Shown here piece after piece: positions 9,746 to 13,254 of a stretch of DNA of 32,683 nt. The stretch spans positions 3,297,569 through 3,330,251 of the forward strand of contig CP070651.1 in assembly GCA_020354625.1 (NCBI GenBank), read 5' to 3'. This stretch comes from Trueperaceae bacterium. GTDB taxonomy: Bacteria; Deinococcota; Deinococci; Deinococcales; Trueperaceae. The notes under the pieces are model-generated. The model saw nothing but the letters and a program-made list of their open reading frames with translations. It had not been told where the DNA came from and did no database searches. The stretch's first letter is position 1, and every line of letters starts with the position of its first letter. A program made the translations under genes and the position numbers.

Positions 9746-11944
9746 CTACTCTTGCGCAGTAGCCGAGTGTTCCTGATAGTTTCGGGTCATCACCACCCAG
9801 GTCTTGAAGGGGGCCAGATCGATGATCTCGCCCTGGGCGGAGGTAAAGGCGATGCCCTGGTCTTTGCGCCAGGAGCCTTCGATGGCCCGGCCGCGCAGGT
9901 AGAGGGTGGCCTCGCCGTCTCGCAAGGGGATGTAGAGCCTCCCCTCGGGATCGTTGGGGAGCGGCCTGGCGCTGATGCCGGCTATCAGCACCGCATCGAC
10001 ATAGACCGCCTCACCGTAGGCGTCGTTGGCCCGTTCCCCGTTTCGAACCCAACGGTACAAGTTCAGCTCCGGCACGTAGCCGAAACCGCTCTGGTAGTTC
10101 TGACCGAAGCGGACCTCGATCCGCCCGACCTCCGGCGCCTCCTCGGCAGGACGGTGGATCACCCCGCGCACCTCCCGGCTGTCCCCTAGCTCCAGGCGGT
10201 TCACCGCCTCGCGCAACGAGTTGCCACCCGCATAGAGGTTATAGGGTGCGCTCCGGCCTTCCTGGCGGCTGAAAAGATCACCCCGCTGATACGCGTTCAG
10301 AGTCGGTATCCTGCTCCCCGCAATCGCCACCATCGCGTCGGGGGAGCCTCCATCGTGCACCAGCACCGCTCCCATGGTGAGCGCCAACTCGTGGAAGTAG
10401 GGCCGGGCACTCCGCACTGGGCCCACCCGCTCCGCATCCAAGCGGTCGTACACCGTCATCAGGCGCGTCAAGCCACCCTCTACCGGCATCTCGATGATGA
10501 CCGATGCCTCGAGGAGTCCCGCTTGCGGGTAGCCCCAGACGTTGTCGAGTAACACCGCTACCGCTCGTTCCCGCTCTTCGCGGTAGGAGCGCTCCGGCTC
10601 AACGAGCGCCGCTCCACTCGAACGATCGCTTCCGGTCGGCGAGGCAGCGGCACCCAAGTTGTTCGCGTCTGCTCCTTCTGCAGCCCGGCTCTGTCCCGCC
10701 TGGAGCGCGTTACCACCGGCTTCCTCGCCATCGGTTCGCTCGCTCAGAACCTCGCTGCTCCCCTCCGGACCCTCTCCCTCTACCGGCGCGCCCGCTTCTA
10801 CGACCTCGGAAACTTCCTCACCGACCTCACCCTCACTCCCCTCAGCCACTGCGTCGATCTCGACCTGTGGGGTCACTGCCTCAGAACTCGCAACGGCCTC
10901 TGCTTCCACCTGAGCAGGTTCTTCTTCAACGACAGCCGTGACCTGTGCAGCGACCTGAGGGCTCGGCACCGGGCGGGAAGCCACAACGCTCGCAGCGACC
11001 GTGGGAGTTGGAACGGCACCGGCGGTCGCCACCTGTGCTGCGACCTGCGGAGTGGGTACCTCAGCAACCTGAGCCACGCTCGCACTTACGGAAGGCGCAG
11101 GAACATCCCTAGCCTGCACAACATCGGTTTTGATCTGAGGTGTGGGCACATCTGTTGCTTGGGAAACACTCACCTTCAAATCGGGAGACGGGACCTCTCG
11201 CAAGTCCACTTTGGCTTCCACTTGTGGAGTAGGTACGGCAGCGGCAACAGCGACACTCACATCGAAAGCAGGAGATGGAACCTCCCGCATCTCGAATACT
11301 TCGACGTCCGGTGTCACCATGATCGACTTCGCCTCAGGGACTTGGGCCGCGACCGTCGGCTTCGGAATCATCAGGTCCTGGGCAGAGCTGTTCGAGTTGA
11401 GCTCAACCTCGTCGATTTCTGGAAGCGGCGTACGCAGCGGTGGCGATGTATCGACCGGGACCTCGGCGAGGGGCTCGGTCTGTGACACGGCCTCTTCTAC
11501 CTGAGAGGTCTGCTCGCGGGGCACCTCTTGTGCCGGTGCCTGTACGCTCACATCTGGTTGTCGAGGCACCGAAGCCGAAACATCGCGAGGCACCGCTTCG
11601 CTCTGTGCAGCCTGTGGAGACTGAACGGATCTATTCTGGGGTTGTGTCTGGGGAGCAGTAGCGACCCGCCGACTCGCCGTCCGCCGTTGCGGCTCACCGA
11701 TATCCGACGAGGCCACCTGCGCTGTGGCACTCTGGGGTGCTGGGTCACTCGACGTAGGCGCCTCGGTTACCACTTCGGATTCGGCCGGCGTTCCGATGTC
11801 GATAACAATAAACGTTTCGATCGGCTGCGGCTGAGGCAAGACCAGCGACCACGCGAGCAGCAAGGTACCGAGCATGTGAACAAGTACCGACAAGAGTAGC
11901 GCTCTACGCTTATCGATATCTTGCAACAGCACCTGAAAATTCAC
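9746..11944 (-). CDS. TonB/TolA-like membrane-anchored protein with C-terminal DUF3048 domain
   Basis: 732 residues in three parts. Residues 1-50 hold one transmembrane helix (about 15-35) after a short basic cytoplasmic tail, as in TonB and TolA. Residues 50-450 are a Pro/Val/Ala/Glu-rich, probably extended periplasmic stretch, including eight ~15-residue repeats VP[TSA]P (222-336). Residues ~455-725 are a DUF3048 (YerB-like) domain, recognised by AVLLDNVWGYPQAGL, GGLTRLMTVYD, VGPVRSARPYFHEL and HDGGSPDAM. A TonB C-terminal domain is absent. The GTG start at 11944 follows AGGGGG 8 nt upstream and lies 4 nt after the exbD stop, so it is the third gene of an exbB-exbD operon. I infer that ExbBD energises this protein and that DUF3048 contacts an envelope target. 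DUF3048 has no established biochemical function that I know of. The gene order and fusion are seen directly; the mechanism is not. Confidence 0.88.
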   Translation of the reverse strand: MNFQVLLQDIDKRRALLLSVLVHMLGTLLLAWSLVLPQPQPIETFIVIDIGTPAESEVVTEAPTSSDPAPQSATAQVASSDIGEPQRRTASRRVATAPQTQPQNRSVQSPQAAQSEAVPRDVSASVPRQPDVSVQAPAQEVPREQTSQVEEAVSQTEPLAEVPVDTSPPLRTPLPEIDEVELNSNSSAQDLMIPKPTVAAQVPEAKSIMVTPDVEVFEMREVPSPAFDVSVAVAAAVPTPQVEAKVDLREVPSPDLKVSVSQATDVPTPQIKTDVVQARDVPAPSVSASVAQVAEVPTPQVAAQVATAGAVPTPTVAASVVASRPVPSPQVAAQVTAVVEEEPAQVEAEAVASSEAVTPQVEIDAVAEGSEGEVGEEVSEVVEAGAPVEGEGPEGSSEVLSERTDGEEAGGNALQAGQSRAAEGADANNLGAAASPTGSDRSSGAALVEPERSYREERERAVAVLLDNVWGYPQAGLLEASVIIEMPVEGGLTRLMTVYDRLDAERVGPVRSARPYFHELALTMGAVLVHDGGSPDAMVAIAGSRIPTLNAYQRGDLFSRQEGRSAPYNLYAGGNSLREAVNRLELGDSREVRGVIHRPAEEAPEVGRIEVRFGQNYQSGFGYVPELNLYRWVRNGERANDAYGEAVYVDAVLIAGISARPLPNDPEGRLYIPLRDGEATLYLRGRAIEGSWRKDQGIAFTSAQGEIIDLAPFKTWVVMTRNYQEHSATAQE
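10940..11281 (-). repeat. Coding region of eight ~15-residue VPxP repeats
   Basis: Within the DUF3048 protein, residues 222-335 are eight near-contiguous repeats of 14-15 residues starting VPSP, VPTP, VPSP, VPTP, VPAP, VPTP, VPTP and VPSP, with alternating hydrophobic positions after each VPxP (for example VPTPQVAAQVATAGA). Degenerate relatives extend on both sides. Such a Pro-punctuated array is suited to a long, stiff periplasm-crossing linker. Confidence 0.85.
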
Positions 11945-11948
11945 GGCT

Positions 11949-12356
11949 CTAGCCCCCTGTCGCGATAGCGATCCTTTGCGCCCCAGCCTGCCTGATGAGA
12001 TCCATGACTTGCACGGTCATACCGTGGGGTACCGTCTGATCGGCGCGTAAGACTACAACCCCCTGACCACTCCTGGATAGTAGCTGCCTGAGCGCCACAA
12101 CCAAGTCTTCTTGGGCAACCTCGGTTCCCGAAAGAAATATTCCTCGTTCTTTCGTGATCGTAACGGTGGGCAGCTCGGAAGCTTGCGTCTGAGAGGTTTG
12201 AGCCTGAGGAAGATCGACGGGCAACCCCGACTCGAGGGTGATGAAGGTCGTGGAAACCATAAAGAAGATGATCAACAGGAACACGACATCGACCATCGGC
12301 GTGAGGTTGAGGTTGATGCTCTGCCGACCAAAACGGCTTAGGCTACGATTTCTCAC
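11949..12356 (-). CDS. exbD: ExbD/TolR-family proton-channel subunit
   Basis: 135 residues. A short cytoplasmic N-terminus leads into one transmembrane helix, LTPMVDVVFLLIIFFMV (18-34), holding the conserved membrane Asp23 that carries protons in ExbD/TolR. A periplasmic domain of about 90 residues follows and ends with the typical MDLIRQAGAQRIAIAT. The GTG start at 12356 overlaps the exbB stop by 4 nt (GTGA). With ExbB it forms the proton-driven motor that normally powers TonB. Here the downstream partner is the DUF3048 fusion protein. TolR, its Tol-Pal counterpart, is the alternative name, but no pal or tolB is nearby. Confidence 0.95.
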   Translation of the reverse strand: MRNRSLSRFGRQSINLNLTPMVDVVFLLIIFFMVSTTFITLESGLPVDLPQAQTSQTQASELPTVTITKERGIFLSGTEVAQEDLVVALRQLLSRSGQGVVVLRADQTVPHGMTVQVMDLIRQAGAQRIAIATGG

Positions 12357-13015
12357 CTGGCACCTGAGATCGCTTCCCTAGGAGTTTCACCTCGACGCTC
12401 TTCGCGCCTTGCAGCCACCACTTGCACCACATTGGCCATGAGTTCCTCTCGCCGCCTGTCGATCTCGATCAGAATGTTATCGACACGATTGGCAAGGTAG
12501 TTCTGTCCGATGAGCACGGGGATGGCTACAATGAGACCTGCAGCCGTAGTCACCAACGCTTGACCGATCCCATCTGCGAGTGCCGCCGGATTCCCCGTCC
12601 CCTGCTGCGATATTTCAGAAAAGGCGACGATCATACCAGTTACGGTACCGAGGAGACCCAATAATGGCGCAATCTGAGCGATGGTGGCCAGTGATCTCAA
12701 GCCTTGCGTGAGCCGTTGTTCTTCTTGAAGCGAGGCCTCTTGGAAAGCTGCTTCCACAGCCGAACGACCATACGGCAGCCGCAACAACGCGGCATTGATG
12801 ACGCGAGCGATCGGTCCACCATGCCGCTCACAAGCCGTGAGGGCCAGCTCCAAATCTCGCTCCCTCACTGCTGCATTGACCTTGGTCATGAGCGTGTCCG
12901 CCTCGACACGCTCTCTAGATAGCTTGAATACCCGCTCCAAAAAGAGATAGACGGCATAGAGGGATACAAGCAGTATCGCCACCAGAACGGGACCACCACT
13001 CCTTAGTAGGTCCAT
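12353..13015 (-). CDS. exbB: ExbB/TolQ/MotA-family proton-channel subunit
   Basis: 220 residues with three transmembrane helices: about 8-27, about 113-135 (IAPLLGLLGTVTGMIVAFSEI) and about 150-172 (ALVTTAAGLIVAIPVLIGQNYL). The second and third carry the family signatures GLLGTVTGM and ALxTTAAGLxVAIP, with the conserved Thr residues lining the proton path. The ATG is preceded by GAGGAG. It opens the operon exbB-exbD-DUF3048 gene, with a 4-nt overlap to exbD. Upstream lie two ATGAT-N3-ATCAT palindromes that may be regulatory. No TonB-dependent receptor is encoded in the window. Confidence 0.95.
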   Translation of the reverse strand: MDLLRSGGPVLVAILLVSLYAVYLFLERVFKLSRERVEADTLMTKVNAAVRERDLELALTACERHGGPIARVINAALLRLPYGRSAVEAAFQEASLQEEQRLTQGLRSLATIAQIAPLLGLLGTVTGMIVAFSEISQQGTGNPAALADGIGQALVTTAAGLIVAIPVLIGQNYLANRVDNILIEIDRRREELMANVVQVVAARREERRGETPREAISGAR

Positions 13016-13030
13016 ATAACTCTCCTCAAC

Positions 13031-13079
13031 ATGATGTCATCATCAACGATGTCGCCAACACCGACAATGATTTCATCAT
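13031..13079 (-). promoter_or_regulatory. Pair of ATGAT-N3-ATCAT palindromes upstream of exbB
   Basis: ATGAT-GTC-ATCAT lies at 13031-13043 and ATGAT-TTC-ATCAT at 13067-13079, with centres 36 bp apart and 16-64 nt before the exbB start. Two identical half-site pairs in so short a leader suggest a dimeric repressor operator, or two small RNA hairpins. No regulator can be named. A possible -10 (TATCTT on the minus strand, near 13090) is weak. Confidence 0.35.
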
Positions 13080-13254
13080 CATCACGTCTAAGATATCGTA
13101 TGAAGCAGGGGTTTGAACCACATGAGAAATTTCCTGCACTCGGCACCTTCATGAAGGGCAAGGTGGGCAACCACCTGCACCGATTCGGATGAGTTACGAA
13201 CCCGAGGGACGATCGTGAGCCTCTGGCTACCGTAACAAAATCGATCAACGCCAT

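Follow-up and report, generated by a model that had tools for sequence, protein, structure and literature searches.

The closest described relatives of the system reported here are the periplasmic force transducers coupled to proton-driven motors, i.e. TonB with ExbBD, TolA with TolQR, and the von Willebrand A (vWA) force transducers described recently (Williams-Jones et al. 2025, PMC12204202). The SHLS motif by which such transducers dock on the motor has been defined (PMC12905483), the roles of the Asp in the ExbD helix and of the Thr pair in the ExbB pore are given in the same work, and the Escherichia coli sequence PISVTMVTP is the D-box to which the ExbD dimer binds (PMC10907165). The vWA report mentions neither YerB nor Deinococcota, and it holds that further systems of such kind are still to be discovered. 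Here we describe a three-gene operon, exbB-exbD-transducer gene, from a 32,683-nucleotide stretch of the genome of a Trueperaceae bacterium (GenBank contig CP070651.1, positions 3,297,569 to 3,330,251; this whole stretch is called the window). The third gene encodes a membrane-anchored protein with a long arm and a C-terminal DUF3048 (YerB) domain. We consider, with a probability of about 0.6, that the operon encodes a force transducer driven by the proton motive force, whose YerB head acts on a cell-wall component in a job like that of Tol-Pal. The best reading adds it, as another class, to the proton-driven force transducers of the periplasm, next to TonB/TolA and the vWA proteins. An earlier, sequence-only reading of the locus had proposed a new kind of envelope energy transducer. 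The part that a dedicated transducer is present is supported, at the level of sequence, by its conservation, the motor residues, the putative docking motifs and the lack of TonB, TonB-dependent receptors and Pal, but the kind is not wholly new after the 2025 description of motor-coupled transducers that are tipped by neither TonB nor TolA.

The operon and its putative transducer protein

The operon spans window positions 9746-13015 on the minus strand, and its coordinates and reading frames were checked and found correct. The genes had been read as overlapping or lying 4 nt apart, which was confirmed: exbB (12353..13015; 220 aa, ExbB/TolQ-like proton channel subunit) and exbD (11949..12356; 135 aa, GTG start, ExbD/TolR-like subunit) overlap by 4 nt, and a gap of 4 nt separates exbD from the transducer gene (9746..11944; 732 aa). 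No terminator-like site was found between the operon genes on the minus strand. The Pfam matches of the motor pair lie far above the curated cut-offs, both for MotA_ExbB (PF01618; E 4.6e-32, 110.9 bits, cut-off 22.9) and for ExbD (PF02472; E 4.7e-32, 111.2 bits, cut-off 25.4). TolQ and TolR models outscore the ExbB and ExbD models on this pair, though below the equivalog cut-offs. The pore Thr stretches of ExbB, LLGTVTGM and ALVTTAAGLIVAIP, are kept in the alignment of Trueperaceae, a second Deinococcota family (f4), the lineages with an alternative tip described below, and Atribacterota. The proton-carrying Asp of ExbD, in NLTPMVDVVF, is conserved in 10/10 aligned rows from the same lineages. 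Judged from these alignments, the proton-path residues of ExbB and ExbD are intact.

The AlphaFold model of the full-length third protein contains one helix (residues 10-35), in agreement with the single N-terminal membrane anchor suggested earlier, followed by low confidence over about residues 42-458 and a folded domain from about residue 462. The sequence of the helix (11840..11917), KRRALLLSVLVHMLGTLLLAWS, matches the Ser-x3-His-x6-Leu part of the SHLS motif through S19, H23 and L30. It has no lipobox Cys and leads into a 416-aa arm, so anchoring as a lipoprotein or on a short stalk, which is common among DUF3048 proteins but perhaps does not define them, does not apply. Ser-x3-His is present in every Trueperaceae fusion helix read and Ser-x3-Asn in the Atribacterota helices, and Ser19 is invariant among 11 fusions from the two phyla (alignment A5). 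The helix is followed by a hydrophobic strand flanked by Pro, PIETFIVIDIGTP in the window protein and IMVTLVELP in Atribacterota, comparable to the E. coli D-box. By the D-box definition, PQPIETFIVIDIGTP at about residues 40-53 (11785..11826) is a putative D-box-like strand.

The arm (about residues 42-458; 10571..11821) has pLDDT (predicted local distance difference test) values mostly <50 and carries VPTPQVxAxV-type repeat units. A Pro-rich stretch of ~400 residues had been expected; the length holds, since about 417 residues are predicted to be disordered, but the composition is Pro/Ala/Glu-rich (Pro 12%, Ala 16%, Glu 11%) rather than purely Pro-rich. Arm lengths are 309-481 aa in Trueperaceae, 235-368 aa in f4 and 166-179 aa in Atribacterota, and the range of 166-481 aa in fusions compares with linkers of 6-49 aa in ten stand-alone DUF3048 proteins.

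The C-terminal head consists of the N-terminal half of DUF3048 (residues 456-583; 10196..10579; PF11258, E 4.4e-32, 111.7 bits), with the motifs VEGGLTR, GPVRSAR, HDGGSP and SAPYNLY around invariant columns, and of DUF3048_C (residues 609-717; 9794..10120; PF17479, E 8.4e-11, 42.7 bits). Both matches exceed their cut-offs and the domain is complete. When folded alone the head has a mean pLDDT of 94.9, and it aligns with Bacillus subtilis YerB (2PSB) over 270 residues with Z 33.8, 2.4 Å and 26% identity. Apart from 2PSB, Foldseek returned noise-level matches for the head, with distant relatives of the fold still possible. No Pfam match to TonB_C (PF03544), TolA (E up to 0.1) or vWA was obtained for the fusion protein. 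A TonB or TolA tip, which the sequence-only reading had denied in favour of DUF3048, is rejected by the lack of a profile match and by the structure search, which gives YerB; both DUF3048 and 2PSB cover the full length of the tip.

Sixteen columns are invariant among 63 DUF3048 sequences from Bacillota to Patescibacteria, including E47, E51, R56, G70-P71, R73-S74-A75-R76, R122, P129 and N131 (alignment A4 numbering), and all are kept in the fusion head. Because of this conservation the head is unlikely to be a degenerate spacer and probably retains the activity of the lipoprotein form. In the literature searched DUF3048 appears as a protein with no assigned function, and yerB, taken to encode a putative lipoprotein, has been counted among the core genes of sporulation. 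The 63 scanned neighbours of stand-alone DUF3048 genes held no consistent envelope partner; they were mostly ribosomal L25, cytidine deaminase and histidine kinases.

Distribution of the operon and exchange of its tip

DUF3048 was found in 34/39 Trueperaceae genomes, including all 26 of those that are at least 90% complete, and f4 has the same ExbB-ExbD-DUF3048 operon. Adjacency to exbD was judged where contigs extend far enough upstream. In all such Deinococcota loci a single open DUF3048 frame directly follows exbD, except for one extra copy in genome G008 (L082:3086-4894), whose 10.9-kb contig has no ExbB or ExbD match. Since this frame recurs across the Deinococcota loci, the joining of two genes by a sequencing error, by frameshift or as a chimera is ruled out as the origin of the fusion. 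The second copy in G008 reads GPVRGAR instead of GPVRSAR and is possibly decaying.

The genome-collection scan for DUF3048, which is a sample, gave at least 80 loci in many phyla. Among the loci listed, ExbB and ExbD adjoin DUF3048 in 7/7 from Candidatus Atribacteria and in 3/5 from Deinococcota, the other two (L109, L124) beginning at contig ends. For the loci listed from Bacillota, Chloroflexota and Patescibacteria, the flanking sequence fetched (up to 4.5 kb) gave no match to ExbB or ExbD. The stand-alone N-termini read from these three groups are lipobox-like or membrane-anchor starts. In Atribacterota DUF3048 is present in 46/50 genomes, with ExbD just upstream in 26/30 loci and the other four ending too soon, and the motor-DUF3048 system is thus near-universal in this phylum. 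The earlier reading spoke of diderm Deinococcota; the system extends beyond them to Atribacterota, and in other Deinococcota the operon bears a different tip. The DUF3048 heads of Deinococcota and Atribacterota fall in separate clades, and a tree holding them together is not rejected by the approximately unbiased test (p-AU 0.436). The three-gene arrangement is kept in two distant diderm phyla and so probably represents a machine, overlooked until now, that works mechanically on the cell envelope.

A second DUF3048 gene, short and stand-alone, occurs in several Atribacterota genomes (G113, G144, G158, G143; L219-L222), and the four such genes tested group in a clade of their own. Upstream of exbB in the two Atribacterota loci scanned lies a gene for a large tetratricopeptide repeat (TPR) protein with YfiO-like repeats (L132:3-2576 and L112:3-2756).

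In three further families of the same order (f2, f3 and f5) the third gene of the operon encodes a helix with Ser/Thr/Ala-x3-His, a long low-complexity arm and another domain of ~110 residues (CAVVVDARGL...VWPD...CQVVFLR; L102:8625-9941, L098:6999-8846, L101:7229-9055, L104:8378-9736, L106:8623-9852), which has no match in Pfam, in NCBIfam or among PDB sequences and which at first sight may resemble LPP20. The tree of ExbB and ExbD recovers every group as a clade (support 98-100%), and the data do not reject a topology that unites the two DUF3048 groups of Deinococcota (p-AU 0.574). This grouping indicates, as far as sequences tell, that one motor operon bears alternative tips, i.e. a swap of heads. 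Directly behind the alternative-tip transducer there is usually a conserved secreted protein, 212-255 aa long (L102:9946-10641, L098:6255-6980, L104:9756-10394, L101:6437-7204), which forms its own family, has no Pfam or NCBIfam match and no solved relatives, and is a candidate partner of the transducer. In L105 (7615-9566) ExbD, helix, arm and tip lie in one open frame of 534 aa, which links ExbD to such transducers. ExbB of L105 is only 116 aa, and in the motor tree L105 sits on a very long branch (2.61).

A proposed wall-directed transducer and its alternatives

The source genome (4.29 Mb in one contig, 97.6% complete) contains one match each to PF01618, PF02472 and PF11258, and none to TonB_C, to the Plug domain of TonB-dependent receptors (PF07715) or to OmpA/Pal (PF00691). 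TonB_C was also not found in three further fusion-bearing Deinococcota genomes. Three SLH proteins are encoded in the source genome, and the two followed to the C-terminus have a signal, SLH, a collagen-like stretch and a barrel-like terminus, which would be consistent with a two-membrane cell whose outer membrane is tethered to the wall without Pal. SLH-type tethers (OmpM) are described as common in Terrabacteria diderms (PMC10628300). The collagen-like stretch, of GPAGPxG type, lies between the SLH domain and the barrel-like C terminus (L226:431-1801 and L227:382-1818).

We propose that ExbB and ExbD would assemble in the inner membrane as a motor of the TolQR/ExbBD type, presumably 5:2 and proton-conducting, on which the fusion protein would dock through its Ser/His helix to ExbB and through the D-box-like strand to ExbD. 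The long extended arm may span the periplasm, with a reach that would let the head work deep in the wall, where it would engage peptidoglycan or a polymer bound to it, a ligand common to diderms and monoderms. Cycles of proton flow would pull on this contact and could help to coordinate the cell wall and the outer membrane, much as Tol-Pal does, in lineages that have no Pal. What we infer from the data above is the assembly, the transmission of force to DUF3048, the target in the wall and a role like that of Tol. Since YerB-type proteins are at work in bacteria that lack an outer membrane, a ligand in the wall or at the inner-membrane surface is more likely than an outer-membrane protein, and the Tol-like role is suggested by the absence of Pal. 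It is tempting to go further and to see an old operon in which the motor works directly on the wall via the YerB head, as an envelope-constricting machine of Pal-less diderms, with tips exchanged between lineages (DUF3048 in Trueperaceae, f4 and Atribacterota, the other domain in Thermus-like and other Deinococcota); this stronger version we hold to be possible but doubtful.

Several observations weigh against the wall-directed transducer. DUF3048 has no known activity, and the fold of the head matches only YerB, itself uncharacterised. The fourth SHLS residue of the window protein is not Ser, and the f4 fusions have no docking His and mostly no Ser either. The neighbouring genes of the operon (PEPC, phosphoenolpyruvate carboxylase; YmdB; glucan phosphorylase) are metabolic and silent on envelope function. 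Such unrelated flanks would also suit a chance neighbourhood or lineage quirk, in which motor genes and DUF3048 gene adjoin with no shared work. This we regard as very improbable, given the tight spacing in Trueperaceae, f4 and Atribacterota alike, the putative motor-docking motif within the fusion, and the fact that these are the sole motor genes of the genome. The architecture in three parts, with docking motif and D-box-like strand as in TonB, would also fit an importer in which DUF3048 is a divergent receptor-binding tip energising outer-membrane uptake proteins, and a true TonB, found as TonB_C in 2/7 Atribacterota genomes, shows that this phylum does possess Ton machinery. Against an importer, the source genome matches neither Plug nor TonB_C, the DUF3048 fold does not match that of TonB, and the domain sits on lipoproteins of monoderms, which have no outer membrane; we find this explanation improbable.

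The main rival is a tether, static or gated by the proton motive force, in which ExbB/ExbD only anchors or regulates the head and the arm is a leash for a YerB enzyme or binder. The disorder predicted for the arm is in line with this, stand-alone DUF3048 proteins work with no motor, and the invariant polar residues (E47, E51, R56, R73, S74, R76, R122 and N131) are of the kind that make up an active or binding site. However, a role for proton flow is indicated by the intact proton path, the kept putative docking motif and an operon conserved in two phyla, and we judge a mere tether unlikely.

In the intergenic part of the window ahead of exbB (13016-13254), repeated GATGATGA/TGATGATGACATCATG elements with inverted symmetry were observed.

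Relation to known systems

The operon is a conserved candidate machine, in two deep-branching phyla, for the way in which diderms with no Tol-Pal energise and hold their outer membrane. Through it DUF3048/YerB, a widespread family that Bacillus and Patescibacteria have too, becomes tied to a motor and hence to the cell envelope, and the tips of transducers are shown to be modules that can be exchanged. There presumably are relatives in culture, so that these proposals are testable.

The likeness to TonB/ExbBD lies in the motor pair, the N-terminal Ser-x3-His-x6-Leu helix, the D-box-like strand, the Pro-containing arm and a globular C-terminal tip. The differences are that the tip is DUF3048, that the arm reaches 309-481 aa in Trueperaceae, that the transducer gene lies within the motor operon, and that the genome gives no TonB_C or Plug match. 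With TolA/TolQR the system shares the gene order motor-motor-transducer, the best-scoring motor models (TolQ/TolR) and a genome with no Ton receptors, but it has no TolA match in Pfam, no OmpA/Pal in the source genome, and a tip of YerB fold. The vWA transducers resemble it in the motor-adjacent gene, the helix with SHLS (here in part), the disordered linker and the foreign globular tip (PMC12204202), and a TPR gene is often found upstream of them, as in the Atribacterota loci above; they differ in that their tip is von Willebrand A and their distribution mainly Gracilicutes (PMC12204202). Finally, the head agrees with the YerB/DUF3048 lipoproteins, such as B. subtilis YerB, in its fold and invariant residues, whereas the YerB-type proteins have a lipobox or signal-anchor, and a short linker (6-49 aa among ten proteins read), and motor genes are missing from their flanks as far as examined.

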